NCBI GenBank assembly: GCA_002282445.1
Contig: NCJK01000001.1
Span: forward strand, 62,001-126,000
Direction of reading: 5' to 3'
DNA from: Burkholderiales bacterium 39-55-53
GTDB taxonomy: Bacteria > Pseudomonadota > Gammaproteobacteria > Burkholderiales > Burkholderiaceae_C
DNA: 64,000 nucleotides
Shown: positions 2,286 through 18,221 of the stretch, piece by piece
Layout: each line of letters starts with the position of its first letter
Position numbering within the stretch: position 1 is the stretch's first letter
Notes under the pieces: model-generated
What the model saw: the letters and a program-made list of their open reading frames with translations, nothing else
The model's database searches: none
What the model was told of the DNA's origin: nothing
Translations under genes and position numbers: made by a program

Positions 2286-2294
2286 TTCTGTTAT

Positions 2295-2366: not shown

Positions 2367-2383
2367 ACTTTTGTGCAACTTTT
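2367..2383 (+). repeat. putative integrase arm-type site, left end
   Basis: ACTTTTGTGCAACTTTT lies about 60 bp inside the left attachment site. Related strings (ACTTTTGTGTAAGTTG at 18297-18312 and ACTTTTTTGTGCAGG at 18222-18236) lie about 40-130 bp inside the right end. A 7-bp inverted pair (AGCGTAA at 2346-2352, TTACGCT at 18334-18340) also brackets the element. Integrase arm-binding is inferred from position only. Confidence 0.4.
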
Positions 2384-2528
2384 TGGTTTGTTGTGTTCTC
2401 ATAGTTACGTCGTCCAAGCGAATTCCAGCATTGTACGTGTACTAAAAGTTACACGCTGTGCTATTTCATCAAGCTGAAAAATCATTAAGAATTACTAGGA
2501 ACGCTATGTTGCTGGTAACCTTCTATCA

Positions 2529-3353
2529 ATGAAAAGAATACGACAAGAACGAAGAAATGGTTCTGTCCATATTTTTCGCCCAATCGACGTTGATGTGGCA
2601 GCAAAAATTTGGCCATTACTAGGCACCTACCAGCATCAAGATTGGGCTGTACCTCTTGATCGGGAACTCCTAGCTAGCATCGTTGGAAAAGCTGCGACAG
2701 ATGCGTTTTATGGCATAGCTGATTCACAAGTTCAAAACATACAACTTAGAACGTTGTTGCGAGAACCATTACGTAGCGCAGACATTAGAAAAAGAAATGC
2801 AGCTATTAAATGGATTGTTTATGACTGGGGAAACATTCCACCAAAAGCAGAACAAGACGAAGACCGCCTTTTCAAAATGTGCGCAGAGCTAAACGACTAT
2901 GCTGATGCTGACGTTAAGCAGTTTATTGTTAAACACAAAATTGATCGTATTGCATCTTGGAGCAAAGTACTAGCTTTTGCAGACAGTGATAAGTACGCAA
3001 TATTTGATGCACGGGTTGCAATGTCACTGAATGCTTTGCTAGATGAAGTAAATTTCAAACGTAAGTTTTTTATGCCTCCATCAATTTCCAAGCCGTTAAA
3101 CAACATATTTGGAAAAATACGCAATCAAGTAAATGCTGATTACGAGGGGAAAAAGCTCTCTTATATGGGGTATCTCGAGTACACATCATTGCTAAACAGC
3201 ATAGTTGAGCAAGGCTTAGCTCCAAACATTCTTCAAGCTGAAATGCAGTTGTTTGCACACGGAAAAAAAATGGGTAACAAATATGCAAGAAAGTACAAAA
3301 TGCCTATCCCCTACCCTGAGGAAGAACAAGGTAACTTGCAATTTGCAAGTTAG
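2529..3353 (+). CDS. unknown protein, first gene of the island
   Basis: A 274-aa protein not recognised as a named family. It is predicted soluble, mostly helical and basic at both ends, with no signal peptide or membrane segment. The central stretch (about 142-170) reads IASWSKVLAFADSDKYAIFDARVA. That resembles the helix-rich region of DNA-glycosylase-like (HhH-type) hypothetical proteins, but I cannot see a certain HhH-GPD hairpin or catalytic Asp/Lys, so this stays a weak resemblance. Its codons are AT-rich like the rest of the island. It stands alone on the plus strand, and its last codons contain a 19-bp palindrome repeated near the other end of the island. The start is ATG 2529, with no strong ribosome-binding site. 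Confidence 0.6.
   Translation: MKRIRQERRNGSVHIFRPIDVDVAAKIWPLLGTYQHQDWAVPLDRELLASIVGKAATDAFYGIADSQVQNIQLRTLLREPLRSADIRKRNAAIKWIVYDWGNIPPKAEQDEDRLFKMCAELNDYADADVKQFIVKHKIDRIASWSKVLAFADSDKYAIFDARVAMSLNALLDEVNFKRKFFMPPSISKPLNNIFGKIRNQVNADYEGKKLSYMGYLEYTSLLNSIVEQGLAPNILQAEMQLFAHGKKMGNKYARKYKMPIPYPEEEQGNLQFAS
3333..3351. repeat. 19-bp palindrome, copy 1
   Basis: AACTTGCAA-T-TTGCAAGTT followed by AG, with perfect 9-bp arms. It lies in the last codons of the 274-aa gene. An almost identical palindrome (central base C) is at 16086-16104. It could be an operator or protein-binding site of the island, or fold as a 7-bp RNA hairpin; no T-tract follows. Confidence 0.7.
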
Positions 3354-3455
3354 GCTGAAACCATTTGAACTATGCCTGTTACAAAGAAAGTGACTACCTA
3401 TGCAACCCATACGGTTGGAGCTAAAAATCGGCGATTTTGACTCGTTTGAATGGTT

Positions 3456-3824
3456 TTAGTATTCGCTTACCAGCATTCCAACCCAGTACCTTCCATCCCA
3501 GCAAGCGTATAGCCTGTACTCATCAAACGGAAAGTCCGCGTAGTCTAATCGTTGCTGTACTAGCAAGTTGCCATTTCCATCCTCAATGTTCACGATGCCG
3601 CCGTTGTTCTTTCTCGTGAACTTAAGAACAGTGAACGGATTTTGATTAAAGTCAACGTCACTCAAATGCAAACCATAAAGCTGCGCTAGCCAATAGCAGT
3701 CAGCGTTATCCATTAAGTATCGAAGCCCGTCAGTTACAACAAACGTTGGTAATAGCCTGTAGTAGTGTTCCGAGCCAATAAATTGGCTGAGATTACCAAG
3801 CAATTCAGCAGCATTTTTTTTCAT
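3456..3824 (-). CDS. DUF6876-family mobile-element protein
   Basis: A 122-aa protein with the pattern of DUF6876 proteins found on plasmids and islands of proteobacteria. It has an N-terminal LGNLSQFIGSEHYYR segment, then TDGLRYLMDNADCYWL, a strand pair ending in EDGNGNLLVQQ, and a C-terminal FPFDEYRLYACWDG. Function is unknown. The start ATG overlaps the stop of the 52-aa gene upstream (ATGA), so the two are probably translationally coupled. The family call is from memory of the motif order. Confidence 0.7.
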   Translation of the reverse strand: MKKNAAELLGNLSQFIGSEHYYRLLPTFVVTDGLRYLMDNADCYWLAQLYGLHLSDVDFNQNPFTVLKFTRKNNGGIVNIEDGNGNLLVQQRLDYADFPFDEYRLYACWDGRYWVGMLVSEY

Positions 3825-3979
3825 AGCGGCTTTGCTGCAACTTTAGCCAATGACTGCTGTGCATTACGCATCTTCAAACGTAGCGCAGCTTCTTTAGCCC
3901 TCTTCTGCGCTATCTTTGCTTGCTGCTTTAACAAGTTGACTTGCTGGCTTGCGCCATCAACGATTTCATTTATACGCAT
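3821..3979 (-). CDS. small coiled-coil protein (52 aa)
   Basis: A short frame from ATG 3979 to TGA 3821. A strong AGGAGA ribosome-binding site lies 6 nt upstream of the start, and the stop overlaps the DUF6876 gene. The product is a single charged helix (QQAKIAQKRAKEAALRLKMR and onwards), rich in Lys, Ala, Gln and Arg, with no membrane segment. Similar short basic helical proteins accompany DUF6876/DUF6641 genes in Burkholderiales mobile elements. Function is unknown. Confidence 0.68.
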   Translation of the reverse strand: MRINEIVDGASQQVNLLKQQAKIAQKRAKEAALRLKMRNAQQSLAKVAAKPL

Positions 3980-4045
3980 TTATCTTCTCCTGTTGTATTT
4001 ATTGGTGGGGATGCTGGCGCTTGAAACGACAACACCCCCAAGCCG

Positions 4046-4483
4046 TTACTTGAGAAAACCACTACGTAACTGACCAGATACAGCTTCAATCTGCGTATCA
4101 AGCTCACCAGCAAGAACGGCAGTATTTACAGCTTCCAATGCCTCAATCAGTGCGTCAGGGCTTGCAACTTCAATCGCAGACTTGCCCTTTGCAAGCTCAA
4201 TCACCTTTGCGCCGTAGCGCACAGCAATACAGCATTTACCGTTTTCAGCAACAAACCACCAAGGTTTGATGCGTTTTGGTACTACGACAGTCACCCGTTC
4301 GCCGTCCGTGTTCGTGACCGTTTTGTTCTTTGTTGGCGAGTATGTTTCGCCCAAACTTTGTGCGCGAGCAAGTTGGATTTGCTCAAACACTTTGCTGCTC
4401 AATTTGTTCCGGCGTTGAACAACCGGTGGTTGGTTACTTGGTTTTTTAGCTGCTACAAGCTTGAGTGATGCAAGGGTTGCCAT
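4046..4483 (-). CDS. DUF6641-family mobile-element protein
   Basis: A 145-aa protein starting MATLASLKLVAAKK, the hallmark N-terminus of DUF6641 proteins of Burkholderiales islands. Next come PPVVQRRNKLSSKVFEQIQLA, a basic VVVPKRIKPWWFVAENGK segment and VRYGAKVIELAKGKSAIEV. The start is ATG 4483 with a GAAGGAAA ribosome-binding site; a longer frame upstream is not needed. Function is unknown. It is the first of three minus-strand genes (DUF6641, 52-aa helix, DUF6876) that look like the ancestral mobile-element backbone rather than cargo. Confidence 0.75.
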   Translation of the reverse strand: MATLASLKLVAAKKPSNQPPVVQRRNKLSSKVFEQIQLARAQSLGETYSPTKNKTVTNTDGERVTVVVPKRIKPWWFVAENGKCCIAVRYGAKVIELAKGKSAIEVASPDALIEALEAVNTAVLAGELDTQIEAVSGQLRSGFLK

Positions 4484-4586
4484 TTGTGTTTCCTTCAAAA
4501 AGTTAATGTGGAAACACAAATTTAGTTTCAGGGCACGTAGTGGACAACCTAAAAGATTAGGACTGAACTGGTCTTAACCACAATTA

Positions 4587-5150
4587 ATGGCTATTCATAT
4601 CAGTGCGACTAAATATTTGCATATGAACAAACAGAACTACAGCCGATTAGACAACCTTATTGCTTTGCCTTGCAGCAACAAAGTTCAGTGGGTTGCAGTT
4701 GGACATACACATATGCATACGTACAACAAAACAGAGGCACAAATTCACGGAATGCTAGAAGGCACAAAAATTACAGGCAGGTTTTTTACTCGTAAATTCG
4801 TTCAATTTTTCAACGGTCGCAAAGGCTTATCTAACAGCTCACATCCAAACAATCCGCTCATCATCAGTCATCTGCACACAGGCAAACTAAACAATACAAG
4901 CAGCACTATTCACTATCACTTTGCATTTGGCAACATACCAACAGGCATTACACAACAGGAAATGATGACTGTGTTTGAAGAGCTATGGGTACACAAGGCA
5001 AAACAATCATCAAAAAGCATTTGGCTTCAAAAAGCTAGCAATGAAAACAAAGGCTGGATTACTTACGGGCACCGCGAAAACAGACTAGGCGCACAGCTAG
5101 GCTTAGACATTCACTCAACTTTTATTCCAAATCAGGCTTGGGCAAGTTAG
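4587..5150 (+). CDS. unknown protein with HYH motif, possibly HUH/Rep-like
   Basis: A 187-aa basic soluble protein not recognised with certainty. A strand-like stretch ending in H109-Y-H111 (STIHYHFAFGNIP) is followed by a helix, then a GW-x-TY segment near 157-160 and HREN-RLG. This order (H-hydrophobic-H, helix, downstream Tyr) is the general layout of HUH endonucleases such as Rep and relaxase-like proteins. A further H-x-H occurs near residues 41-44. No family profile could be checked. If real, it would be the replication or mobilisation protein of the element. The start could be ATG 4587 or ATG 4623; neither has a good ribosome-binding site. It is divergent from the DUF6641 gene. Confidence 0.5.
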   Translation: MAIHISATKYLHMNKQNYSRLDNLIALPCSNKVQWVAVGHTHMHTYNKTEAQIHGMLEGTKITGRFFTRKFVQFFNGRKGLSNSSHPNNPLIISHLHTGKLNNTSSTIHYHFAFGNIPTGITQQEMMTVFEELWVHKAKQSSKSIWLQKASNENKGWITYGHRENRLGAQLGLDIHSTFIPNQAWAS

Positions 5151-5265
5151 AGCCTTTGCTCGCTTGCTTTTTTTCTTTACTGCGTTTTAACAGCAGTAAT
5201 AGCATCGCTTTGTCTAAAAAATAAACACTCAGAAAGTGTGCGAAGCAATGTGAAAGAGCTAGCGA

Positions 5266-5487
5266 TTGAACATTGCAGAAGCGCAGCGAACAGCGTTCGC
5301 TTTCGAATGTAAATATAGAATGTTCAAAGCACAATATAAGACACGTAGCCCACACGAAACGTGGAACATACTTGGCATTTACAACAGTGAAGCTAACGCA
5401 ATTTCAAGTGCAATGCACAAAAAGAAACGCGGCGCTTTGTTGGTACGTGTTATCGACAAGCGTGGTGCTGTTGTGTTTGTCCACTAA
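5266..5487 (+). CDS. small hypothetical protein (up to 73 aa)
   Basis: An open frame from TTG 5266, or from ATG 5320 for a 55-aa product. A GAAAGAG stretch precedes the TTG. The product is basic, with an amphipathic tail LLVRVIDKRGAVVFVH. It resembles no family I can name. Its last 4 nt overlap the end of the convergent transglycosylase-like gene. It could be a shadow frame; only the island-like codon use and the tidy fit between neighbours argue for it. Confidence 0.35.
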   Translation: MNIAEAQRTAFAFECKYRMFKAQYKTRSPHETWNILGIYNSEANAISSAMHKKKRGALLVRVIDKRGAVVFVH

Positions 5488-6743
5488 CTTTTCTTGTCAT
5501 ATATGCTCCGCGAGTGAGCATCAAAAGTACCCTTGTTCTTCGCAATAAAACCACGCCAATCTCTAGCTGCAAATGCCGCATCAATTAAGTCAATGCAGTC
5601 GATGTATAGCTTAGGTGTGTTGTCTTCGCGATTAGTACTAAATGCACTTTCGTTAGCCCTCTGCACAGCATCAAGTGTCACCCAAATGTTGTGATTTGAC
5701 AGGAGCAAAAGGCTTACGTTGTCGTATTGCCGCTTATCAAACGCATCCCAATCTTGAACGTTCAAATGCCCGAGAGTCATCTTGTCACCAATAGCTGAGC
5801 TAAATGGAAATGGCTCAGTGCTACCAACTTTCTTATATGACTGAGGACTAGACTCACTTGGAAGAACCCAAGTCTTTGCATCATTTGTTAACACGGGGCT
5901 GACGTAAGCGTTTAGTTTTGGATTGGTTTTGCGAAGATTGCGCTGAATAGCAGTCAAGACAATAGCCCATTTAAGCTCCGAGACTCCAAGCGTATGAACC
6001 CAATCTAAACCTTCTGCAAAAGCTCCGTCATCGCGCATTAGTAAGACGGCATATAGCAATTGAGCCAGTCCGCCCTTGCTGCCAGCACCGCCAGCAAGAG
6101 CCCAACCACCCCAGCGGAATTTTTTAACTGCATTCCACCATTGCTCAGTTGCAACGTTATCAATGCCCTGCACTACATTCAACCACTTAGTGTGCCCTTG
6201 CCTTCGCACGTCTATGTACTGCAAGTTGTTCACAGTCATTTGTAGCAGCTGCTCCCGAGTGCAGTTGCTAAATGGTGACTCGGTTTTTTCTTCTGCAGCC
6301 CACAAAGGCATATCGATGCTCATTGCGTACGTGGAGTTGGCTTCAAGCCACCCAAAAATCCAGCTACGCACATCATCAGCACCATTCCAAGCATCAATTG
6401 CAGCTGCTGCTGGCATATGAGGCGTTAAAGCGTTATAGCCCTTTAAAGAGCCCTGCCCAATTTGATAACCTCCACTATCGCCAATAACAACTGCTGTGTT
6501 CCTGTCGGCTCTTGTTACTGCATTGTCGGGATTCGCTCCAACTTGGTAGTTCCCGATTGAATGTAGCAAATATGGGTAATGCCACAGCTTATTGCTTTCA
6601 TTCCAGTATTCCAAATCTTCAATGCTAAGTCCTGCTGGAAATGGACGATTGCCTAGCGTCTCGGTTACCAAGCAACGAGCATAGGTATCGTTGATTGCTG
6701 GCAAAAAAACTGCGTAGTCGGTGATATTGAAGTCGCTACGCAT
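5484..6743 (-). CDS. DpdA/TGT-like base transglycosylase
   Basis: A 419-aa protein with the motif order of the tRNA-guanine transglycosylase TIM-barrel superfamily. It has G-D89-SGGYQ (88-94; TGT has SDSGGFQ), SIDMP at 142-146, NVVQG at 189-193 (TGT: xIVQG), WALAGG near 214-219 and HTLGVSELK at 250-258. TGTs exchange a guanine for queuine or a 7-deazaguanine. The DpdA branch does this in DNA. The tRNA-type zinc cluster (CxCxxC) is absent, and I cannot place the canonical second Asp (FDC motif of TGT), so chemistry is inferred. The phage/DpdA-like variant fits better than tRNA TGT. The start ATG overlaps the end of the 629-aa gene by 8 nt. This is the last gene of the hsdMSR operon. No 7-deazaguanine synthesis genes are nearby. 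Confidence 0.75.
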   Translation of the reverse strand: MRSDFNITDYAVFLPAINDTYARCLVTETLGNRPFPAGLSIEDLEYWNESNKLWHYPYLLHSIGNYQVGANPDNAVTRADRNTAVVIGDSGGYQIGQGSLKGYNALTPHMPAAAAIDAWNGADDVRSWIFGWLEANSTYAMSIDMPLWAAEEKTESPFSNCTREQLLQMTVNNLQYIDVRRQGHTKWLNVVQGIDNVATEQWWNAVKKFRWGGWALAGGAGSKGGLAQLLYAVLLMRDDGAFAEGLDWVHTLGVSELKWAIVLTAIQRNLRKTNPKLNAYVSPVLTNDAKTWVLPSESSPQSYKKVGSTEPFPFSSAIGDKMTLGHLNVQDWDAFDKRQYDNVSLLLLSNHNIWVTLDAVQRANESAFSTNREDNTPKLYIDCIDLIDAAFAARDWRGFIAKNKGTFDAHSRSIYDKKS

Positions 6744-8625
6744 AGCAGTACACAGGTATCAAATCGTCTTCAACAATTGGTTCATTCAATTCGTCAAAGC
6801 TTGCTGCAGAGGGAGCTACGGAAGATTGTTTTGCATATGCTTTTGGCTGGTACACAACAAACGCACCTTCATTGCGTTTTTTTGTTTGCTTGTTGAATGT
6901 TGGTATTGCTGTTATGTAACTTGCAGCTGTTGTCTCGTATTTAAAGACCAGCACATTTTTGTCAAGAATTAGCTCAACTTCACCGTCTAGTTGCAAAGCA
7001 CCGATACCACTTAACGCTGGCATCAAATCCCTGCACTTGAAGAGAAACTTGAGTTTGCGAGTTAGCTTTAATTTATTGTTCAAAGAGCAAACCGTGTCTG
7101 CCCCAATATCACCGGCTTTATCAAATATTTCAAATTCAAGTGCGTCACTTGCAACGGCAAAACTACATAAGTCATTTTCAGGACGACTTGCGTGATCGCC
7201 CTTACTGTCAATCCATTTCTCAGCGTATAACTTTGCAAGCTTATGCATCGTAGGCGCATTGATTTTGAATCGATTTTTTATTGATGCAACGTACTTTTCA
7301 TTCAGCTTAGCTTGTGTGAACTCTTTCCCTTCACCAGCAGCAAAAGAAACAATGTCAATGTATGCAAAGTCTGCTGGCATTGCCTTGTTTGTCAATTTCA
7401 TTGCATACACAATACTTGGCGCTTTGTGTATGGCCATAATTTTCCCTACATTGGTGACACCAAACTGATTGATATCTTCATTGCCTAACAGCCTCTTTTC
7501 CAAGTAAAACTTGCTGTAACTTGGCAAATAAAAATCGTTGTTACCAAATTTAATTAATTTTTTTCTTGGTTTAGATGAAGTCGTAACACCACTGCGGCTA
7601 CCAATTGGGCTTATGAGAAGTTCGTTTGATGACGAAATGAAAGCTAGTCTTTTTCTGGCTTCAACGTACTTACCGTTTGCATCTCTTTCGTATCCAAGCT
7701 CAGGCACTTTATCAAGTTGCTCTCTGAATTTTCCAGTAACAAATTGGGTTCGTAGCATTTCTAGAATGCAGCGCAAATTGTTAGGTACTGGTGGAAATTG
7801 TCTGCGATATGAAGCAAGCAATGCTGACTTGATAACTTGCTCATCGATGCTGCTATCGATGAAATGCATCTGCTTTCCATCAACTCGGACTAAAGCTAGC
7901 GAATATTTCCGCTTGTTCGCGTTGACTCCAAAATCCAAGTCAAAACTAGCAATTCCGCTTGCTTTGCGCCAGTACTCTTCTGCTTCTTCCAATAGTGCTT
8001 GTCTACGCTGAACATCAGTAACTTCAACTATTGCTGCCCTTTCAGGTCTGGGCTTTGAAACACGATTTGGGGCAGATGTGTAATTGCTTGGATTTGCAGC
8101 CTTGTCTGCTGTCTCATCTGCCTCGTGTTCATCAAGCAAAAGGTCACTCGTTAAAGAAGGGCTGACAGTTGATGGTGGGGAAATCTTAGCCTGTTGCTTA
8201 GCAAGCCCAGTCACGCCACTGTTTTGGTCAATGTAGTTTGCAAGCTTGGAAACATTTTTTTTGTATAGCTTAGGCTTAGCTTGCCACTCCTCGTGTATTG
8301 CATTAAGGGCGCTACTCATTCTGCTGCGCTTGCTGTCATTCAACGTATTCACGCCGTAAAACAAACGCAGTATTGGCGCAAAATTAATTTTTGTACTCGT
8401 CTTTCTAAGTTGCTCTTGCGGCAAATGAGCCAGCTTTGCGTTGTAGTAGTCAGGGAGTTTGTGAGCCTCTTGCCACCAGTAATATATTTTGGCGAGATTT
8501 TCACGCTCTTGCTGCTGAGTTACGTAGTGCATTCGCAACTCTTGTACGCAGCTGTCTTGCAAAGTGTTTAACTGATCGTCAAGATTTTTCTCAGCTGCTG
8601 AAATTTTTCGTTTCTTAGTTGCCAT
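6736..8625 (-). CDS. unknown 629-aa protein, operon partner of the transglycosylase
   Basis: No named family recognised. Residues 1-150 are helical and charged. A Ser/Thr/Pro-rich linker follows (about 150-200), then a globular region (about 205-600) and an acidic tail (EPIVEDDLIPVYCYA). The segment near 540-595 (KCRDLMPALSG, then VELILDKNVLVFKYET) has a faint sliding-clamp-like strand pattern, which I regard as speculative. There are no obvious ATPase, nuclease or methyltransferase motifs. It starts 14 nt after hsdR with an AGAGG ribosome-binding site, and its end overlaps the DpdA/TGT-like start by 8 nt. The two proteins are therefore probably made together. A DNA-handling partner (as ParB-like DpdB is for DpdA in dpd clusters) is a reasonable guess, but the sequence is not ParB-like. 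Confidence 0.6.
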   Translation of the reverse strand: MATKKRKISAAEKNLDDQLNTLQDSCVQELRMHYVTQQQERENLAKIYYWWQEAHKLPDYYNAKLAHLPQEQLRKTSTKINFAPILRLFYGVNTLNDSKRSRMSSALNAIHEEWQAKPKLYKKNVSKLANYIDQNSGVTGLAKQQAKISPPSTVSPSLTSDLLLDEHEADETADKAANPSNYTSAPNRVSKPRPERAAIVEVTDVQRRQALLEEAEEYWRKASGIASFDLDFGVNANKRKYSLALVRVDGKQMHFIDSSIDEQVIKSALLASYRRQFPPVPNNLRCILEMLRTQFVTGKFREQLDKVPELGYERDANGKYVEARKRLAFISSSNELLISPIGSRSGVTTSSKPRKKLIKFGNNDFYLPSYSKFYLEKRLLGNEDINQFGVTNVGKIMAIHKAPSIVYAMKLTNKAMPADFAYIDIVSFAAGEGKEFTQAKLNEKYVASIKNRFKINAPTMHKLAKLYAEKWIDSKGDHASRPENDLCSFAVASDALEFEIFDKAGDIGADTVCSLNNKLKLTRKLKFLFKCRDLMPALSGIGALQLDGEVELILDKNVLVFKYETTAASYITAIPTFNKQTKKRNEGAFVVYQPKAYAKQSSVAPSAASFDELNEPIVEDDLIPVYCYA

Positions 8626-8639
8626 TTGCAGCCCTCTTC

Positions 8640-11600
8640 TTAGCTAGCTTCAGCCCACTCATCGCCCAATGCTTGAACCTGCTGCAACACTAGCTCTACA
8701 GCACCATCCTGCTGGTCGGGTGGGTACTTGTATTTGCGCAGGATGCGTTTAACCATCAACCGCAGATTGGCACGGACACTTTCACGTTCTGCCCAATCGA
8801 CCTTGATGTTTTGGCGAAGATTCTCCGTCAGTTCGTGTGCAATCTTTTTAAGGATTTCGTCATCAAGCATACGCACAGCTGATTCGTTATTTGCCAGCGC
8901 ATCGTAAAACTTCACCTCGTCATCAGTCAGCCCAAGTTGTTCGCCGCGACCACTTGCTTCGCGAAACTTCTTAGCCATCTCAATCAGCTCTTCCATTACT
9001 TGTGCAGTTTCGATGGCACGGTTTTGGTAACGCTGGATAACGTTCGTCAGCAAGTCACTGAACTTTTTCTCCTGCACCACGTTGCTGCTAAAGCGACTTT
9101 TAATTTCCCCTTGCAGCAAGCGTTCAAGCAGTTCAACAGCTAGGTTACGTTCTGGCAGGTTCTTGACTTGTGCCAAAAACTCATCGTCAAGCAGCCCAAT
9201 GTTTGGCTTATCCAAGCCCACAGCATCAAATATATCAACCACGCTGTCGGAGACTACAGCAGAGCTGATGATTTGCCGTATAGCCAAGTCACGCTGCTCA
9301 TCCGTCTTACGCTGTTTGGTTATGTCACGCTTAGTTAGCAGGACTTTGATGCCTTGCATAAATGCCACTTCTTCACGCACAGCCTTAGCATCATCTAGTG
9401 TGCAGCACAAGGTGAATGCTTTGCTCAATGCCACAGCCGTATCAGCAAAACGTTTCTTGCCGTCTTTCAAACCAAGCACGTGGTTAGCTGCACCAGCAAG
9501 TGTTTTGTGCCCAGCAGTCATAAAGTTGCTGTAGTCAAATCCGTGCAGCATCCCACGCAATACGTCCATTTTTTCAGCTAGTACGCTGTAGGCTTCGTGT
9601 GCATCAACAGTTGTTCTTCCACGTCCGTTGCTGTTCGTGTATTCCTTCATCGCGGCTTTAAGTTCATTGCCGATACCGATGTAGTCCACAACCAAGCCAC
9701 CTTGCTTGTCTTTGAACACGCGATTGACCCGTGCAATGGCTTGCATCAGGTTGTGCCCCTTCATTGGTTTGTCCACATACAGCGTATGCACACAGGGAGC
9801 ATCAAAACCTGTTAGCCACATATCGCGGACGATAACTAGCTTCAACTTGTCGCTTGGGTCTTTAAACCGTTTCTCAAGCCGCTTTTTGGTTTTGCCATCG
9901 TAAATGTGTGGACGCAGCAAAGCCTTGTCGCTTGCAGAGCCAGTCATCACGATTTTGATTGCACCCTTTTCAGGGTCTTCATCGTGCCAATCGGGACGCA
10001 GCTTGACGATTTCGTTATACAAGTGAACGCAAATGTCACGGCTCATAGCCACAACCATTGCTTTACCAGTCATTGCCTTGTTACGCTCTTCAAAGTGTGC
10101 AACCAAGTCAGCTGCAACCTGTGCAACACGCGGCTCTGCACCAACAACACGCTCCAATGCAGCCCACCGGCTTTTGAGTTTTGCCTGTGCGCTGTCCTCT
10201 TCGTCTTCAGCTAGTTCGTCCACTTCAGCGTCAATCGTGGGCATTTGCTGCTCGTTGAGCTTTAACTTAGCAAGCCGCGATTCGTAATAGATAGCAACAG
10301 TAGCGCCATCTTCCTTGGCTTGCTGCATATCGTAAATGTGGATGTAGTCACCAAACACAGCGCGGGTGTCACGGTCTTCGCTACTAACGGGAGTACCAGT
10401 AAATGCCACAAACGTTGCATTTGGCAAAGCATCACGCAGGTGTTGTGCGTAGCCAGCTTGATAACGCTCTTCACCAGCCTTGCCCTTCAGCTTGGCATCA
10501 AAGCCGTATTGTGTGCGGTGTGCTTCGTCCGCGATAACCACTATGTTGCTACGGTCGGACAAGACAGGAAACGTGTCTTCGTCCTCGCCCAGCATAAATT
10601 TTTGGATGGTGGCAAACACAATGCCGCCCGATGGACGATTGGCAAGTTTTGCACGTAAGTCTTGACGAGTACTAACTTGAACAGGCTGTTCGCGCAGCAA
10701 GTCTTGGCTCAAGCTAAACACGCCAAACAACTGTCCATCCAAGTCGTTGCGGTCTGTGATGACGACAACCGTTGGGTTTTCCATTGCAGTAGATTGCATC
10801 ACTCGCGCAGCAAAGCAAGTCATTGTGATGCTCTTTCCACTGCCCTGCGTATGCCAAACAACGCCACCTTTATGAGAACCGTCAGGACGCGATGCTTGAA
10901 CAACCTGCTCAATCGCTGCACGTACTGCGTGGAACTGGTGATAGCCAGCAATCTTTTTAACTAGCTTGCCATCGTCCTCAAACAAGACAAAATAGCGCAG
11001 GTAGTCAATCAAATACTCAGGCGCGAGGACACCACGCACCAAAGTTTCAAGCTCTTGGAACTGTCCAAGCGGGTCGATAGTCTTGCCATCAATCGTACGC
11101 CAAGCCATAAATCGCTCAGCATCGGCAGACAACGAACCAAGCAATGCCTCTGTTCCATCCGAGATGACTAACACCTCGTTGTAATGGAAAACATCGGGTA
11201 TTTGCTCTTTGTACGTTTGAATTTGGTCGAACGCCTTCCAAATGTCAGCGTTTTCGTCAGCTGGGTTTTTTAACTCCAGCAACACAAGCGGCAAGCCGTT
11301 CACGAACAAAATAATGTCGGGTCTGCGGGTGTGTCGTGCGCCCTTAATAGTGAACTGGTTGACTGCAACCCAATCGTTTTTCGCTGGCGTTTCCAAATCA
11401 ACCAAACGAACAAAGTCACCACGTGTCTCACCATCTTTTTGGTACTGCACGGGCACGCCATTAACTAGCAACTTGTGAAAATGTCTATTAGCACTTAGCA
11501 GCGATGGAATGCCAAGGTCTTGCACTTGTCTCAAAGCATCTTCACGTGCGTTTGCTGGAATGCTTGGATTTAAACGGTTGATTGCCTCACGCAAACGAAA

Positions 11601-11735
11601 CGGTAGCAACGTATTCTTGTAGTCAGCCCGTTCAGGCGTTACACCGTCAAAAGCAATGTCATAGCCACTTAGCAACGTATAACCAACGTCACTTAGCCAG
11701 CCTAATGCCTCTTGTTCTAGTTGGTCTTCAGTCAT
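8640..11735 (-). CDS. hsdR: type I restriction enzyme, translocase/endonuclease subunit R
   Basis: A 1031-aa HsdR. The nuclease domain carries the PD-(D/E)xK site D140 ... E154-L-K156. The SF2 motor follows, with Walker A TQGSGKS at 296-302, DEAH at 403-406 and FTGTP near 445-449. The helical C-terminal region contacts the methylase. Length is normal for the family. With HsdM and HsdS it forms the complex that cuts unmodified DNA after ATP-driven translocation. It starts at the base right after the hsdS stop and is followed 14 nt later by the 629-aa gene. No frameshift or missing motif was seen, so it is likely active. Confidence 0.95.
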
Positions 11736-13025
11736 TTAAGCTGTTACCTTTTCCAGCTCTGCCTCTGCGTCAGTAATACGCACTTGCCCAGAGATTAAAC
11801 GTGGCAGTAATGTGTCACGTAGGTTAGCAAGTGTATTTGCTTGTAAGGCGTTATGCACAATGCGTTCAACTAGTGGCGTGAATAGTGCATTTGCTACTTT
11901 TAACACTGACTCATTGGGGACGTTTACTTTAGCTGACGACAAATGTCCTCGTTGAATATGCCCCATAGTAGTAGCCTTGCTTGCAGCTATCTGCCTAAAA
12001 CTTTCGAGGTGATGCTTAGTCCACAAATAGTAAAACCATTTATCAAAGCGACTTGAAGAAACTTTGAACAAATGTTGGTTCAACGCACCAACTCCACCAC
12101 ACCAAATTTCAACCTCAAGACTTCCAGACCAAGAAAACAAAACATCACCATTTTGAATGACGTACTCGGGCTTAATCAAACCAGAAGCCAAGTCTGCGCC
12201 TGCTGTGTCTCCCTTACGAAGCTGGGCTATTTTGATAACTGGTAAATCATTAACACCTGTTGGTGGAAATTTCTGTAATGCAAGGCCATTCAAAAATTCA
12301 GCGACATCGTCTAAAGCCTCAACCTGCCAACCCTTCGGAAGCAAACCCAACTCAGCCTCATCAAACGCATCAGGAAAAAGTGCAGCAGTAGATACATCCA
12401 TTCCATCGGGCAACTTGCCCTCAGACTTTGCACGTACAGGGTCAAAATCCACGAACCAAGACTTGAACAATGCTTGAGCAATAGCTTCTAGTGTTGCATT
12501 GGTTTCACGTAATAGTGTGATGCGGTTATCCATCGCAGCCAATGCTTTTGCAGATGCTCTACGTTCATTTGGTGGGATGTGTTGGAATTCGTAAGCAGCA
12601 ATTGATTGCCAAGAAACTCGTTGACGACCAGAAGTACCTTCCATACGCCCAATTGCATACTTACGGAATTCAGGGTCACGACAAAGATAGTAAATGTAGT
12701 CATCATCTTTAGGGTCAATGCCACATAGAACGATAAATTCTGTTGAGCCTTCACCTACAAGCTCCGCATCAAGACAATTAACCTGCGCAGTTTTTCCGTT
12801 CTCTAAGCACGGAGTGATTCGGGCAAGCAAAGTGTCGCCATTTTTAAAATGTGCTCCTGCTGACTTTGCAACACGAACTTCAACATCACTGCGCTGTATG
12901 TCTCGGGAATTTTGTGGAAGCGCCGCCATTTCAACAAAAGGGACCTGGACTCCTTTGGTAACTCGACGCTTTGGATTGATTTGAGCTATCTCGTCTAGCC
13001 GAGATAGCTTTAATTCAAAACTCAT
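11736..13025 (-). CDS. hsdS: type I restriction enzyme, specificity subunit S
   Basis: A protein of about 429 aa with the HsdS layout: two target-recognition domains, each followed by a conserved helical spacer. The central spacer contains LAAMDNRITLLRETNATLEAIAQALFKSWFVDFDPV (read in segments), an HsdS hallmark. The second TRD starts near PKGWQVEALDDVAEFLNG, and the C-terminal spacer ends TLANLRDTLLPRLISGQV. It sets the DNA target for both methylation and cleavage. ATG 13025 is preferred over TTG 13031; it overlaps the hsdM end by 11 nt, indicating coupling. The recognised sequence cannot be predicted from here. Confidence 0.93.
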   Translation of the reverse strand: MSFELKLSRLDEIAQINPKRRVTKGVQVPFVEMAALPQNSRDIQRSDVEVRVAKSAGAHFKNGDTLLARITPCLENGKTAQVNCLDAELVGEGSTEFIVLCGIDPKDDDYIYYLCRDPEFRKYAIGRMEGTSGRQRVSWQSIAAYEFQHIPPNERRASAKALAAMDNRITLLRETNATLEAIAQALFKSWFVDFDPVRAKSEGKLPDGMDVSTAALFPDAFDEAELGLLPKGWQVEALDDVAEFLNGLALQKFPPTGVNDLPVIKIAQLRKGDTAGADLASGLIKPEYVIQNGDVLFSWSGSLEVEIWCGGVGALNQHLFKVSSSRFDKWFYYLWTKHHLESFRQIAASKATTMGHIQRGHLSSAKVNVPNESVLKVANALFTPLVERIVHNALQANTLANLRDTLLPRLISGQVRITDAEAELEKVTA

Positions 13026-14562
13026 AGCCAAGACTCCCGAGTTTTTGCTTAATCACCTCATCAAGTTCAGCACCCTTAGCCATCTGCTCACCTAATCTCT
13101 CAGTCAGCTTTTGCATCTTGTCTGCAAACGCTTCGTCATCATCCGCAACTTCTTCAGCACCAACATAGCGACCCGGAGTGAGTACGTGTCCGTGTGTAGC
13201 AATTTCAGCTAAGCTAACGCTGCGGCAATAACCCGCAACGTCTTCATACACACCACCTTGACCACGCCAAGCTTTAACAGTCTGCTCAATCCGTGCAATC
13301 ACGTCATCAGTAAATTCAGCTTGGATACGGCTAATCATCGTGCCAAGCTTACGAGCATCAATGAAAAGCACTTCACCCTTGCGTTTGGTTTTTTGCTTAA
13401 CTAAGAACCACAAGCAAGCTGGGATTTGGGTGTTGAAGAACAACTGGCTAGGCAATGCAATCATCACCTCAACAGTATCAGCCTCCACCATTGCTGCACG
13501 AATCACGCCTTCGCTGTTTTGGCTGGAACTCATTGAACCATTTGCCAACACAATGCCAGCACGACCAGTAGGTTTGAGGTGATACAGCATATGCTGTAAC
13601 CACGCATAGTTGGCATTGCCTTGTGGTGGTTCGCCGTAAACCCAACGCGGGTCTCCCATTAAGCTACCGTGCCACCAATCGCTAATGTTGAACGGTGGGT
13701 TCGCAAGGATGTAATCAGCACGAAGGTCTGTGTGTTGGTTTTTAATAAACGTATCAGCAGGCTCGCGACCAAGATTAAAGTCAATGCCGCGAATAGCCAA
13801 GTTCATCGCAGCCAATCTCCAAGTTGTTGGGTTTGCTTCCTGCCCGTAAATGGCTACGTCACCAATCTTGCCGCCGTGTGCCTCAATAAACTTTTCACTT
13901 TGTACGAACATTCCACCCGAACCACAGCAAGGGTCATACACCTTGCCCTCGTGCGGTGACAGAACAGCCACAAGTGTTTTAACAATTGATGCTGGCGTAT
14001 AGAACTGCCCTCCTCGCTTACCTTCTGCGTTGGCAAACATACCGAGGAAATACTCGTATACCTGTCCTAGTACGTCACGTGCAGTACTGGCGTTATCGCC
14101 AAAGCCAATAGTAGAAATCAAGTCAACCAGTTCACCCATCTTGCCATCGGGCAACTGTGCTCTTGCATATCGCTTGTCAAGAATGCCTTTGAGCTTAGGG
14201 TTCTCACTCTCAATCACAGTCAACGCTTCATCAATGCGTTTGCCAATGTCAGGGGCTTTGGCAGCGGCACGAATTGTTTCCCAACGTGCAGATTCGGGAA
14301 CCCAAAACACATTTGTTGCTGTGTAGTAGTCACGCTCTTCCAGCTCTGCCGTAATGTCTGCATCACTTGCATCGCCAAAGTAGTACTCGTCTTTGGGGTC
14401 ACGCAAACGAACAGTTAACTCTTGCTGCTTCGCCGCGAAAGTGTCCGATATGTACTTCAAGAAAATCAAGCCCAATACATAGTGCTTGTACTCTGCCGCA
14501 TCCATAACTGGCCAGAGTTTGCAGGCTGATGCCCAAAGTGTTTTTTTAATGTCGTCAAGCAT
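13015..14562 (-). CDS. hsdM: type I restriction enzyme, N6-adenine methylase subunit M
   Basis: A 515-aa HsdM. The N-terminal helical HsdM_N domain (LWASACKLWPVMDAAEYKHY) is followed by the SAM-dependent N6-adenine methylase fold. GGQFYTP lies at 184-190, the SAM-binding DPCCGSGG at 210-217 and the catalytic NPPF at 288-291. It methylates adenines in the HsdS target to protect self DNA. It lies 19 nt downstream of the RHH gene and overlaps hsdS. The length is standard for the class, and no damage was seen. Confidence 0.95.
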   Translation of the reverse strand: MLDDIKKTLWASACKLWPVMDAAEYKHYVLGLIFLKYISDTFAAKQQELTVRLRDPKDEYYFGDASDADITAELEERDYYTATNVFWVPESARWETIRAAAKAPDIGKRIDEALTVIESENPKLKGILDKRYARAQLPDGKMGELVDLISTIGFGDNASTARDVLGQVYEYFLGMFANAEGKRGGQFYTPASIVKTLVAVLSPHEGKVYDPCCGSGGMFVQSEKFIEAHGGKIGDVAIYGQEANPTTWRLAAMNLAIRGIDFNLGREPADTFIKNQHTDLRADYILANPPFNISDWWHGSLMGDPRWVYGEPPQGNANYAWLQHMLYHLKPTGRAGIVLANGSMSSSQNSEGVIRAAMVEADTVEVMIALPSQLFFNTQIPACLWFLVKQKTKRKGEVLFIDARKLGTMISRIQAEFTDDVIARIEQTVKAWRGQGGVYEDVAGYCRSVSLAEIATHGHVLTPGRYVGAEEVADDDEAFADKMQKLTERLGEQMAKGAELDEVIKQKLGSLGYEF

Positions 14563-14581
14563 TGTTCGTCGTCAGTCGTGG

Positions 14582-14791
14582 TTAGCGTGTTTTTGTTTTG
14601 GGCATCAACTGTGCAGCTGGATTGGCTACTTGTTGAAGGCGTGTTTTGTTTTTGGAGTTGCTGCCTTGAACGAAGTCGCGCATAAACGACCTCAAGACCT
14701 GTGCAGCTGGCACGTTATGTTCGTGGCAAAGGCTGATGAACTGCTCCCGCAGCTCAGGCTCTACCCGTATCCGCATTCCAACGTCTTTCAT
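14582..14791 (-). CDS. ribbon-helix-helix regulator, first gene of the RM operon
   Basis: A 69-aa basic protein. The start is ATG 14791 with a GAGG ribosome-binding site 5 nt upstream. A short strand GMRIRVEPELREQFISL is followed by two helices (HEHNVPAAQVLRSFMRDFVQG), which is the RHH (CopG/Arc/MetJ) fold. A lysine-rich tail follows. RHH proteins bind DNA as dimers and usually repress their own operon. The position 19 nt upstream of hsdM, facing the divergent mrr-like gene across a region with a palindrome, fits an autorepressor that delays restriction. An antitoxin-like role is possible, but no toxin gene is visible. Confidence 0.7.
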   Translation of the reverse strand: MKDVGMRIRVEPELREQFISLCHEHNVPAAQVLRSFMRDFVQGSNSKNKTRLQQVANPAAQLMPKTKTR

Positions 14792-14878
14792 AGCATCCTC
14801 AAGCTCAAATAGGCACACAATGTGTATCCACACTCTAGCATATGGTATAGACTTGAGAAATATTTGATGGGACTAGAG
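14792..14878. promoter_or_regulatory. divergent control region between RHH-hsd operon and mrr-like gene
   Basis: An 87-bp region holding the palindrome ACACAATGTGT (14815-14825) flanked by an inverted pair CTCAAG (14798-14803) and CTTGAG (14852-14857). It is the only gap between the two divergent transcription units, so it must hold both promoters. The symmetric elements are good candidates for the RHH operator. No consensus -35/-10 pair was identified. Confidence 0.5.
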
Positions 14879-15850
14879 ATGAAAAATATTTGGTGCGTGA
14901 GAGCTGATTTCGGCACTTACACGAATCAGTTCGTAAATGGCGGCTATGTTGCGGTTGGCTACGGCCTAACTTCAAGCCTTGCTAACGTGACGACTCGGGA
15001 AGAACTTACAAATTTATACAAAGCTGCACATCCCGATGAGACTAGCAACCTAGTCGTTGGGCAGCAAGTAGGTCAAGTAGCTAGATTTTTGCTGGAAATG
15101 CAAGAAGGTGACTATGTCGTTACCCCTGCTGCTGACACTGAATGGCTGCACTACGGGCGTGTCACGAGCAAAGGCTACTGGTTTGACGAAAGCAAAACAG
15201 ACGGTTGTCCCTACTCACATCGCAAAGGCATCGAGTGGCACAAGGAAAAGCTAAGTCGTAGCGCATTTTCTGTCCCATTCCAAAACACAATCCGCTCATC
15301 ACTAACAGTCTTTGCAATCAGCCAGCAAGACGAGTTTTTAACTGTAATTAAAGCTGACGGGCACGTATCGCAAAAGCACACAGCTGTGTACGACCCCTAT
15401 GAATCTGTTCTTGAACAAGTTCTTGAGCTACACGACAAAGAGTTTGAAATTCTTGTTGGCTACCTGTTGACAGCAATCGGCTTTGAAGAAAGCCAAGTTA
15501 CTGGCAAAACAGGCGATGGTGGTGTTGATGCAACTGGAGTACTGAATGTTGCTAACTTAGCCAAAGTAAAAGTCTTTGTGCAAGCCAAGCGCTATAAGCG
15601 AGGCTCAAAAATAAATGCCAATGTAGTGAAGCAGCTACGTACAGCAATCCCTGTTGGTGGACAAGGTGCATTCATTACTACTGCCGATTTTCAAAGTGCA
15701 GCTGCAGAAGTTGCTGTAGAGGCTGGATTTCCACGCATTGGACTAATTAACGGCAAGCAGCTAGTGGACTTGCTAGTTGAACATTGGCAGGATTTGCCAA
15801 CTGAATTTAGAGACCGTCTAGGCTTGCGAATTGGTTTGATTCGGGCATAA
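14879..15850 (+). CDS. Mrr-family (type IV-like) restriction endonuclease with N-terminal sensor domain
   Basis: A protein of about 323 aa. The C-terminal third is an Mrr_cat nuclease: FEILVGYLLTAIGFE (E190), GGVD217, then VFVQ235-A-K237-R, the D...QxK site of Mrr enzymes. The tail LINGKQLVDLL is also typical. The N-terminal part (KNIWCVRADFG ... GDYVVTPA ... YGRV) looks like a PUA/EVE-type pocket, a fold used to read modified bases; that assignment is by pattern only. Mrr enzymes cut modified foreign DNA. The start is ATG 14879, with GGGA about 6 nt upstream; ATG 14867 and 14822 are alternatives. It is divergent from the RM operon that contains a possible base-modifying transglycosylase. Confidence 0.8.
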   Translation: MKNIWCVRADFGTYTNQFVNGGYVAVGYGLTSSLANVTTREELTNLYKAAHPDETSNLVVGQQVGQVARFLLEMQEGDYVVTPAADTEWLHYGRVTSKGYWFDESKTDGCPYSHRKGIEWHKEKLSRSAFSVPFQNTIRSSLTVFAISQQDEFLTVIKADGHVSQKHTAVYDPYESVLEQVLELHDKEFEILVGYLLTAIGFEESQVTGKTGDGGVDATGVLNVANLAKVKVFVQAKRYKRGSKINANVVKQLRTAIPVGGQGAFITTADFQSAAAEVAVEAGFPRIGLINGKQLVDLLVEHWQDLPTEFRDRLGLRIGLIRA

Positions 15851-16296
15851 CTGTAATGTTCGAGAACAATCGCGGATACGGACGGACATTTTTGGTGCAA
15901 CGGTCAAAAATCACCACATCAAAAGCGTAAGTACTCCCCAGCAACTTTTTACGCAGCAGGTTTTTTGGGTACAGCAACCCTTTTTTTGGGCAAAGTGCAC
16001 CGTTTTACAAGCCCTACACGCGGCGCAAAACGCAACTCAGCTACCAACGCTAGTCCAAAACAGCAAAACAGCTTGTAGGGCTTCTAACTTGCAACTTGCA
16101 AGTTAGTCCTCGAAATGTGGCACTTTAGCCACAAGTTTGGGCTAAATAGCACTGAGCATAAATTGCACATTACATACTCAGTGCAGCTAAGTCATTGATT
16201 TATATAGGTTTATAGACAGGCAAAAAAGGGGTAGGAATTTTGGACATAAGAAAACACACTAATAGCACTTTAAACATATCAACGCGAAAGGTGCAA
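15851..16296. other. 446-bp non-coding stretch rich in inverted repeats
   Basis: No convincing gene here. It contains AAGCCCTAC (about 16012-16020) paired with GTAGGGCTT (about 16075-16083), and the 19-bp palindrome at 16086-16104. A small hairpin TGTGGC/GCCACA lies at 16116-16133, and an 8-bp inverted repeat GCACTGAG (16149-16156) / CTCAGTGC (16177-16184) with a 20-nt loop. It lies directly upstream of the short recombinase gene, so it may hold its promoter, a recombination site or a small RNA. Confidence 0.45.
16086..16104. repeat. 19-bp palindrome, copy 2
   Basis: AACTTGCAA-C-TTGCAAGTT followed by AG; differs from the copy at 3333-3351 only at the central base. The two copies sit close to opposite ends of the island. 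Confidence 0.7.
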
Positions 16297-16866
16297 ATGT
16301 CCAAGCAAGCCAAAACACTAAACGAACGCGAACTGCAACGTTTGCTAGATTTTGTAAAAACGACAAAAAATGCAACACGCAATCGTGCAATTTTGCTGCT
16401 TACACACTTGGCTGGTATGCGAATAGGCGAAGTAGCTGCTGTCCGCATTTGCGATGTGCTCGCGAGCGATGGCACAGTTCGCGAAGAAATTAATTTGAGT
16501 GCAGCCCAAACAAAGGGCAACAAAAGTCGTAGCGTATTGCTAAACGAACGGATGCAGACAGAACTCGCTACGTACATCCGCACAGTCCGTGTACGCGACC
16601 CAAAACAAGCATTGTTTGCAACACAGCGAAGCGCAGCGTTTACAGCTAACTCGCTTACACAGGTTGTGAACGGCATTTACAAACACGCTGGCTTTGATGG
16701 CGCTAGCAGCCACAGTGGACGCAGAGGATTTTTAACTAACTTGGCAGAAAAAGGCGTTAGTGTTCGCGTAATGATGGCACTTGCTGGACACGCAAATATG
16801 GCAACAACCCAACGTTACATTGACTTGAGACCCGGAGTACTACGCAACGCTGTTGAGCTTGTTTAA
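16297..16866 (+). CDS. short tyrosine recombinase
   Basis: A 189-aa protein that is essentially a bare tyrosine-recombinase catalytic domain. It has R42 in GMRIGE, K73 in QTKG, H139-x-x-R142 in HSGRR, H165 in GHANM, and nucleophile Y174 in TTQRYIDL. The N-terminal core-binding domain of full integrases is missing. FimB/FimE-like inverting recombinases and some island recombinases are built this way. ATG 16297 with AAAGG upstream is preferred over the longer frame from 16240. The gene is convergent with the main integrase, with 6 nt between stops. It may act in excision, in inversion of a local segment, or on another site. All catalytic residues are present. Confidence 0.85.
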   Translation: MSKQAKTLNERELQRLLDFVKTTKNATRNRAILLLTHLAGMRIGEVAAVRICDVLASDGTVREEINLSAAQTKGNKSRSVLLNERMQTELATYIRTVRVRDPKQALFATQRSAAFTANSLTQVVNGIYKHAGFDGASSHSGRRGFLTNLAEKGVSVRVMMALAGHANMATTQRYIDLRPGVLRNAVELV

Positions 16867-16872: not shown

Positions 16873-18216
16873 TTATAAAGCCAGCGCATTTTTGAGCATT
16901 TTCTCAGGCGTTGTGCGGTAATAAGTTTTTTCAATCTGCGATACGCTAGTACCAGCCATTTCAGCAACAGCAACAATGTCTTTAGTGCTGTTTACTTTAT
17001 GAGTGATAAATGAGTGCCTAAAGCTGTAATGAACTATGCCACGCACAGCTGCATCCTCAATACCGGCTCTTTCAAGCAAGTTATCAAAGTGCACATAGAG
17101 TGCACGTGGCGTAATTGCAGTCTCGCCATCGATGCTAAAAATTAAATCTTCAGCAATTTCACGTTGTATAGCAATTAGATTCTTTTCTAAAAATCGCTCT
17201 GTTTTGTCTGTGTATTTTGCTGGCAAATCTTTGAACTTAATACGCTTTGCAGCTAGGTGCAGCAATCCATACACGTATCTATCGTCGCCGACCATAAATT
17301 GGCGTGTACGCCTTACTTTGCTTATGGCACCAGGCACAGTAATGTGAAAGACGTTATCAACAAATCTTCCGTCTGCGTTTCGCACTTCCTGTGCGCTATC
17401 TTTGAAGCTAATGTGCTTCCATTTAAGCTGCAACATTTCTCCACGTCGCATTCCAGTAAGCATTGATATGGCGTTGAAGTAGCCACACACAGCTTTAGTA
17501 GCGTTGTTTTTATCGTTTTTATCATCGGCAGGCTCGTGTACATAGACACGCAGAACTTCGTCAATTCGCTTTAGCTCATCTTTTGTGAAGATTGGACGTT
17601 TAAGAGCTAAGTCACCAGCGTCGATAGGTTTCAACTTCTTGAAATCAAAGGCTTCGATATATGTTTCATTGCGCTTAAAAAGCCAAGACACCATTGCATT
17701 AATAGTGCTTTGCTCATTAACGATAGTGCTTTGACTGATTTTTATGTCATTGCGCTTTTTAGTTTGGCGGCGTTCGCTAAAGTAGTTTTCACAGTCAGTC
17801 CTGTGCAGCTCTTTCAGCTTAGTGTCCTTGCCAATATATTTCAGCCAATGCTGCAAGTGCGTGTAAATCGTCTTCCAGCGCCCTTCTGTAATAAGCTCAA
17901 CTTCAATATCCTTCTTACGCTGCTCTAAGTACAGTTGAACGCCTTGCTTTGCTGTAAGCGAGTAATAAGTCTTGCCAGCCATCTCCATACCAACAAGTAT
18001 GTGATATTGCTTTTTGGCTTTGTCTATCGCTGTGTCGCGATTTCGAGTTTTTAAGCTGAAGCGGGCGTACTTTTTCTCTTTGCCCAACCACATACGCATT
18101 TGCCAGTAGTCACCACGTTTGTAGATGACTGCTTCATCAAAGATTGGGATTTCGTCGTCAGCGTATGCAGTTTTTTTGAGTGTCATTTTTGGGGCAGGAG
18201 CACTTGCGAATTTCAA
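16873..18216 (-). CDS. int: guaA-type site-specific tyrosine integrase
   Basis: A 447-aa integrase with an N-terminal arm-binding-like region, a SAM-like core-binding domain (about 90-205) and the catalytic domain. Catalytic positions seen are R257 in GMRRGE, K300, R400 in YSFRHSF, and a GTSxxxIEKTYY motif with Y432 as probable nucleophile. The histidine of the usual HxxR box is Tyr here, and the second His is replaced within the AGTS motif. Both substitutions are common in this integrase branch. It lies next to the guaA junction (18353-18363), transcribed away from it, with possible arm sites in the 130-bp gap. It is expected to catalyse insertion and excision of the island. Confidence 0.9.
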   Translation of the reverse strand: MKFASAPAPKMTLKKTAYADDEIPIFDEAVIYKRGDYWQMRMWLGKEKKYARFSLKTRNRDTAIDKAKKQYHILVGMEMAGKTYYSLTAKQGVQLYLEQRKKDIEVELITEGRWKTIYTHLQHWLKYIGKDTKLKELHRTDCENYFSERRQTKKRNDIKISQSTIVNEQSTINAMVSWLFKRNETYIEAFDFKKLKPIDAGDLALKRPIFTKDELKRIDEVLRVYVHEPADDKNDKNNATKAVCGYFNAISMLTGMRRGEMLQLKWKHISFKDSAQEVRNADGRFVDNVFHITVPGAISKVRRTRQFMVGDDRYVYGLLHLAAKRIKFKDLPAKYTDKTERFLEKNLIAIQREIAEDLIFSIDGETAITPRALYVHFDNLLERAGIEDAAVRGIVHYSFRHSFITHKVNSTKDIVAVAEMAGTSVSQIEKTYYRTTPEKMLKNALAL

Positions 18217-18221
18217 TAAGC

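Follow-up and report, generated by a model that had tools for sequence, protein, structure and literature searches.

A candidate sliding-clamp relative and a DpdA2-like transglycosylase form a recurring gene pair, found in large phages and beside a type I restriction operon on a Burkholderiales island

Enzymes of the DpdA2 type are already known, and so is a DNA-modifying enzyme with a sliding clamp as its binding partner. The DNA of Vibrio phage nt-1 was reported to contain dPreQ0 (PMC6884629, in the sections available), and the alpha-glucosyltransferase of phage T4 was described as co-purifying with the clamp gp45 (PMC13216743, in its accessible text). In the open-access literature searched, outside of which most subscription papers fall, no conserved pairing of a transglycosylase with a dedicated clamp relative was found described; mycobacteriophage gene lists, in the portion of that source at hand, name a clamp and a dpdA-like gene in different phages and not as a pair (PMC10893344). 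Such a pair was identified here in a stretch of 64,000 nucleotides (nt) from Burkholderiales bacterium 39-55-53 (contig NCJK01000001.1, positions 62,001 to 126,000; hereafter the window), contained in a genome of 2.56 Mb (designated here as G000). On the minus strand of the window, a gene encoding a transglycosylase relative of 419 amino acids (aa; 5484..6743) adjoins a gene encoding a 629-aa partner (6736..8625). We consider it probable that such pairs represent a clamp-tethered DNA guanine transglycosylase, supplied by the queuosine pathway of the host.

Database searches with the 419-aa protein yielded no match over the curated cut-off in Pfam or NCBIfam, no match in PADLOC, none by sequence in the PDB and a single PHROGs match at E 0.47. 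Profile searches of PDB sequences in this work returned only weak, short matches or none. The AlphaFold2 (AF2) model of the 419-aa protein, based on a 47-row alignment and with a predicted local distance difference test (pLDDT) score of 89.1, retrieved 59 PDB matches at E≤0.001 using Foldseek; the 50 listed were all tRNA-guanine transglycosylases (TGTs), with template-modelling (TM) scores of 0.37–0.53, indicative of the TGT fold of DpdA and DpdA2. A profile of the family aligned with DpdA2 of Vibrio phage nt-1 (hhalign probability 77%, E 2e-5, a single nt-1 sequence), the alignment spanning the DSGG and ISYDSS motifs. In a weak alignment (probability 19%) with the tRNA TGT that this genome encodes, the family motif ISYDSS is placed collinearly with FDCVMPTR, the aspartate of this FDC motif being presumably Asp280 of Tgt. 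Asp280 is given as the nucleophile of Tgt (PMC3660597, in the passages available). In agreement with the sequence-only reading of this DNA, which had called the protein TGT/DpdA-like, the predicted structure and the profile alignment support its membership of a divergent DpdA2-like family with a TGT fold. The candidate identity of tRNA TGT was rejected, as the protein gave no match to the Pfam TGT model PF01702 and the tRNA TGT of this genome is encoded on contig C9.

The 629-aa partner likewise gave no match over the curated cut-off in Pfam or NCBIfam, none in PADLOC or PHROGs, a single match at E 0.89 against PDB sequences, and no match by tblastn in phages and plasmids; its relatives are 10–30% identical to it. 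Its AF2 model (37 rows, pLDDT 82.9) retrieved 415 PDB matches at E≤0.001, of which the 50 listed comprise PCNA-type clamps, clamp-holding clamp-loader complexes and their relatives, and 80 BFVD matches at E≤0.001, where clamps made up most of the functionally named entries among the 50 listed. The predicted model therefore displays the clamp fold of PCNA, gp45 and DnaN, in a region comprising approximately residues 241–592 (6850..7905, minus strand; bounds read from the secondary structure of the model, with hhalign covering residues 326–577). In front of this region is a helical N-terminal domain that is additional in comparison with clamps, and which also occurs in two stand-alone G000 proteins, L215 and L216 (hidden Markov model [HMM] E ~1e-11, in a set of 24 open reading frames [ORFs]).

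In phages, the corresponding clamp-like gene is separate, encodes ~245 aa and is located in front of the transglycosylase gene. The partner profile aligned with this phage family over most of the latter's length (hhalign probability 73.5%, E 3e-5). The Pfam clamp family was matched by neither the partner nor the phage clamp-like genes, and the phage family also lacked a match among PDB sequences. When five phage upstream genes were scanned, four matched phrog_12062, a family of unknown function, and that of the Vibrio phage, alone among the five, also matched phrog_223 at E 6.7e-5, a family annotated as DNA polymerase processivity factor. Together, the model and the profile comparison support the 629-aa protein, which had been left as an unknown when only the sequence was considered, being a predicted sliding-clamp relative with an added helical N-terminal domain.

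Relatives of the transglycosylase were identified by tblastn in 13 phage records, i.e. 11 Pseudomonas phage records (PA5oct twice), Sinorhizobium phage Phosso and Vibrio phage 2.275.O, as well as in one Azospirillum plasmid. A scan with a profile-derived pattern located relatives at 65 loci on bacterial contigs and at least 594 on viral contigs (594 of 599 candidates); the best 80 of these were retained, and all viral-locus counts given here refer to them. A single-protein scan of bacterial contigs, covering 20 stretches, returned no relative of the 419-aa protein. In the PA5oct-like Pseudomonas phage records (locus L011 and further tblastn matches), Paride among them, the transglycosylase is annotated as 'hypothetical protein'.

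A partner relative adjoins the transglycosylase gene in 50 of the 65 bacterial loci, being located upstream on the same strand (36), upstream on the opposite strand (7), downstream on the same strand (6) or downstream on the opposite strand (1), where the labels of L045 and L060 are probably wrong owing to over-long ORF starts. Four further bacterial loci carry the phage-type clamp-like gene, four lack a closed transglycosylase ORF, and seven have no partner at the threshold used, five of the seven being contig ends or fragments. Two Azospirillum loci, including L065, which is counted among the seven, carry a divergent partner relative on the opposite strand and convergent with the enzyme gene (hhalign probability 95–96%). 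At L077, the gene preceding that of the enzyme was rejected as a partner relative (hhalign probability 3.6%). Among the viral loci, 77 of 80 encode a separate clamp-like gene, which in the 74 loci where both positions are available lies upstream on the same strand with a gap of −76 to 1325 nt; two of the remaining three have the enzyme gene at a contig end, and L079 has no clamp-like gene. The PA5oct clamp-like gene upstream of the enzyme is annotated as 'structural protein'. In a congener (G080), a 403-aa ORF (L007:8384-9595) joins ~349 partner-like residues to a stretch matching transglycosylase residues 93–143, and is an apparent remnant of the pair. As adjacency is kept across several arrangements, a functional link between the two proteins is suggested; they form a unit of their own that recurs in bacteria and large phages.

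In a phylogenetic comparison of 56 bacterial and 27 phage rows, the bacterial and phage labels required two changes, with Phosso placed outside the other phages. This tree, obtained by a quick method from every fourth viral row and with two bacterial rows left out, contains several long branches, and four of its labels (L037, L049, L051 and L061) were set as phage by hand. These four loci, labelled as Planctomycetes, Euryarchaeota, Pacearchaeota and Neomarinimicrobiota metagenome-assembled genomes, carry the phage-type clamp-like gene with the transglycosylase gene and group with viral rows; they are probably mis-binned phage contigs.

The supply of precursor had been described as absent from this DNA, which is true of the window, where no Que-type relative was found among ORFs of ≥90 aa, and not of the genome, since G000 encodes QueC, QueF and tRNA TGT elsewhere; preQ0 and preQ1 should therefore be available. 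In 37 of the 80 viral loci the fetched stretch contains FolE-type (32), QueE-type (15) or YhhQ-type (1) genes, with FolE and QueE together in 10. Close to the pair of Vibrio phage 2.275.O, a preQ0 reductase, a COG1738-type transporter, a queuosine gene and a GTP cyclohydrolase are annotated. A QueE-like gene was also observed ~3 kb downstream of the PA5oct transglycosylase gene.

Computation supports both folds, the conserved adjacency, the presence of a clamp-like gene next to the transglycosylase relatives of phages, and precursor genes in the host; from these we infer the DNA substrate, the base inserted, the formation of a ring and the purpose of the system. The clamp relative would encircle DNA or track along it and keep the transglycosylase in place there, perhaps at replication forks. 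The aspartate of an active enzyme would act as a nucleophile on the sugar of guanosine and release guanine, which would be replaced by a 7-deazaguanine (preQ0 or preQ1 from the tRNA-queuosine pathway of the host), thereby marking the DNA. The window enzyme is probably inactive; a second pair of this genome, on contig C1 (partner of 557 aa, enzyme of 456 aa), has an enzyme (C1:798961-800235) that keeps the aspartate. A bolder reading, at somewhat less than even likelihood, is a DNA modification system of a new type, in which a dedicated clamp relative carries a guanine transglycosylase along replicating DNA and guanine is exchanged for 7-deazaguanine; large phages and bacterial mobile islands would have it in common, and the window enzyme, next to a restriction operon, would have turned into a subunit without catalysis and with a possible sensing role.

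Several observations weigh against the clamp-tethered transglycosylase. The TM-scores of the partner model against clamp chains are moderate (0.51–0.64 by target length), and the Phosso upstream gene was rejected as a clamp-family member, matching a head-and-packaging family and aligning with an hhalign probability of only 0.5%. DNA polymerase genes lie near the PA5oct enzyme gene, such that part of the viral adjacency may stem from replication genes being grouped together, and no clamp-loader-like gene was detected near the bacterial pairs with one insensitive query, which detected none in the viral loci either. The viral precursor counts derive from single-sequence queries with no control for the background rate, and such queries found no QueC-, QueD- or QueF-type relative in the 80 viral loci; FolE, moreover, also serves folate synthesis. 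For T4, clamp binding was judged not to be the main determinant of the alpha-glucosylation share (PMC13216743, in the text accessible).

If correct, the clamp-tethered transglycosylase would assign a role to the partner gene of an orphan family, i.e. a clamp keeping a base-exchanging enzyme on DNA, and would suggest how phages could modify their DNA during replication. It would also suggest a transfer of the pairing between phages and the islands of bacteria, with a domain added, and turns the clamp dependence of 7-deazaguanine insertion into a testable question. The purpose of the pair would most likely be self-marking or anti-restriction, self-marking being favoured over an attack on invaders because relatives of the pair are found in phages.

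The opposite purpose, an anti-phage defence in which the clamp part would target the replicating DNA of invaders, which the enzyme would alter or poison, appears unlikely, with evidence on both sides. The pair is island cargo beside hsd genes and PDC-S02, its distribution is patchy (3 of 299 family genomes in a single-protein search; 1 of 369 class genomes, that of the window), and the partner is far more diverged than the enzyme (~20% versus 42% identity), all of which would suit a defence system. Conversely, neither protein contains a recognised nuclease or killing domain, and the occurrence of relatives in phages, some of which lie near genes of the precursor type, points to DNA protection.

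The window enzyme itself is exceptional within its family. In an alignment of 142 rows, the aspartate in the nucleophile column is kept in 141, including the second G000 copy, and the sole exception is the window protein. These rows comprise seven sequences from the window, G000, G184 (a congener), one plasmid and three phages, together with those of 58 of the 65 bacterial and 77 of the 80 viral loci; L023 (the same locus as L006) was left out, as were six bacterial and three viral loci without a long enough closed ORF. The window protein skips the motif in frame after approximately residue 277, having ~17 codons fewer than L005 and L006; the place of the absent motif corresponds to 5907..5915 (minus strand), where the pLDDT of the model falls below 50 (residues 273–280). 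The motifs DSGGYQ, ID.P, NV.QG, GWA.AG and H.LG are retained. Because the nucleophile aspartate is absent, the window enzyme is probably catalytically inactive; the data favour neither a recent loss nor a non-catalytic role.

In a specific form of the latter, which we rate as quite improbable, the window copy would function as a subunit without catalytic activity, paired with the C1:798961 paralogue, as in eukaryotic TGT. Consistent with it, the only near-invariant columns absent from the window copy are the two within the lost motif, its branch length exceeds the median (0.5 versus 0.27) and yet is not among the flagged long branches, an aspartate-bearing paralogue is present in the same genome, and eukaryotic TGT provides a precedent with one catalytic and one non-catalytic subunit (PMC3660597, in the passages available). 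However, this is one such case in 142 rows, a recent loss would give the same picture, and the paralogue is 41% identical and has a partner of its own; the second G000 copy and one in G184 are 41–46% identical to the window copy.

That the family acts on RNA and not on DNA is very unlikely. The closest solved structures among the matches listed are indeed tRNA transglycosylases, but a clamp-like partner, the relationship to DpdA2 with the dPreQ0 reported for nt-1 DNA (PMC6884629, in the sections available), and the presence of a tRNA TGT already in the genome all argue for a DNA substrate.

The remaining candidate role concerns the adjacent restriction genes. On the minus strand, the gene order RHH-hsdM-hsdS-hsdR-629aa-419aa was confirmed for all six ORFs, with spacings, from the 419-aa gene towards RHH, of an 8-nt overlap, a 14-nt gap, 0, a 17-nt overlap and a 19-nt gap. 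The close packing noted earlier was thus borne out, and the term 'fused' was not, since the genes adjoin without fusion. HsdM, HsdS and HsdR domains are encoded in a single operon (8640-14562) as is characteristic of type I restriction-modification: hsdR (8640..11735, 1031 aa, type I restriction subunit; Pfam, NCBIfam over cut-off, PADLOC), hsdS (11736..13031, 431 aa, TTG start, specificity subunit; Pfam, PADLOC) and hsdM (13015..14562, 515 aa, N6-adenine methyltransferase; Pfam, PADLOC), all on the minus strand. While these Hsd assignments are clear, that of the small RHH-like protein (14582..14833, minus strand, 83 aa, GTG start) relies on a weak Pfam RHH_9 match below its cut-off (E 0.011).

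The proposal that the transglycosylase is coupled to hsdMSR did not hold within the loci examined. Using the window HsdR as the single query (phmmer E≤1e-4, loci of widely differing length), no hsdR-like ORF was found in any of the 65 bacterial loci of transglycosylase relatives; hsdM-like ORFs occur several kb off in two, L053 and L075. Conversely, the pair lies within ~1.5 kb of hsdR in the window only and at none of 29 other hsdR loci, among which the partner profile gave one weak match (E 0.022), to a different gene of 405 aa. In the congener G184, an 89%-identical hsdR is followed by this 405-aa gene (L196:9150-10367) in place of the pair; the middle part of its product is weakly like the N-terminal domain of the partner (hhalign probability 34%, E 4e-4; HMM domain E 1.2e-5, 24-ORF set), a likeness that is regarded as a lead and lends no support to base exchange by Hsd. 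A base-exchange system coupled to Hsd was rejected, within the loci examined, on these counts together with the G184 hsdR and its other gene. That the pair is integral to Hsd and adds a second base mark which HsdR ignores is therefore extremely unlikely, the 14-nt spacing after hsdR and the G184 arrangement being set against both null counts and a window enzyme without nucleophile. Hsd looks to be neighbouring island cargo that is incidental to the pair, and a false lead is thereby removed, the Hsd link not being found elsewhere.

The pair and the hsd genes are located within a low-GC stretch (~2.3–18 kb of the window) with two tyrosine recombinases beside a guaA-like gene. The recombinases are a short tyrosine recombinase of the island (16240..16866, plus strand; Pfam Phage_integrase E 1e-28) and a tyrosine integrase at one island end (16873..18216, minus strand; Pfam Phage_integrase E 3.6e-9), which adjoins what we take to be guaA. 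Divergent from the hsd operon is the candidate defence protein PDC-S02, with an Mrr nuclease domain (14822..15850, plus strand; PADLOC E 3e-153; Pfam Mrr_cat E 1.5e-21). At the other side of the pair, the minus strand encodes DUF6641, an island backbone gene (4046..4519; Pfam E 1.8e-16), and the island gene DUF6876 (3456..3824; Pfam E 2.2e-26). Of 299 genomes of the family, 12 contain the DUF6641 gene, at 29 places in total, and at three of these places (two in G000, one in G184) it lies within ~4 kb of a transglycosylase locus, as judged by coordinate comparison with only the transglycosylase loci from the single-protein search of family genomes. As the pair is close to just three of the 29 places, it behaves as optional island cargo. 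The best explanation, which we regard as rather likely when taken as a whole, is that the window represents a mobile island whose cargo includes an ordinary type I operon and a separate two-gene clamp-transglycosylase unit.

Further features of these islands were observed. A perfect 21-nt palindrome, TAACTTGCAANTTGCAAGTTA, is located at window positions 3332-3352 and 16085-16105, close to both island ends, and with up to two mismatches allowed occurs at exactly those two places in the genome; its 19-nt core was found in one of 208 fetched loci, itself a piece of the same region. No exact repeats of ≥14 nt were found between positions 18101-18500 and 1-6000. A 187-aa protein (4587-5150) contains HYHFAFGN, similar to HYHIAFGN in a protein of the G184 island (L196:8465-9007). 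In a DUF6641-type island of another genome (G087, L217:10746-12279), a clamp-loader-like AAA+ gene (Pfam AAA E 2e-4, Gp44_lid E 0.04) comes after the gene of a 275-aa protein that resembles the G184 405-aa gene (E 6e-7) and is itself not reported by the partner HMM.

Compared with known systems, the operon at 8640-14562 is typical of type I restriction-modification (hsdRMS), except that the neighbouring clamp/transglycosylase pair was not found beside the other hsdR genes examined. The bacterial Dpd system, as far as its accessible description goes, resembles the window in having a TGT-family enzyme on a genomic island (PMC12839542). The classical Dpd system was rejected for this locus, since none of the 13 window proteins scanned gave a ParB-like or DpdC-type (DpdB/DpdC) Pfam match and the partner here is related to clamps. 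BREX-Related Capture systems with TGT, in the same partly available source, also place a TGT homologue near defence genes, as in the window; this candidate was rejected as well, no PglZ, DUF6079, HerA/FtsK or DUF4007 match being obtained among the 13 proteins. With nt-1 DpdA2 (PMC6884629), the family has in common profile homology, the DSGG and ISYDSS motifs and, presumably, guanine exchange in DNA. It differs in that nt-1 was not among the 13 records found by tblastn from the Vibrio phage 2.275.O member at E 0.01, and in that the dpdA2 gene of nt-1 is flanked by genes for GTP cyclohydrolase and QueC, no clamp being annotated within the 19.5 kb examined. The T4 alpha-glucosyltransferase, according to the available part of its description, performs other chemistry, and its clamp is the replication clamp, unlike the partner here, which is encoded on an island and has an additional domain; as it both modifies DNA and binds a sliding clamp, the T4 enzyme nonetheless represents the nearest precedent for the pair described here.

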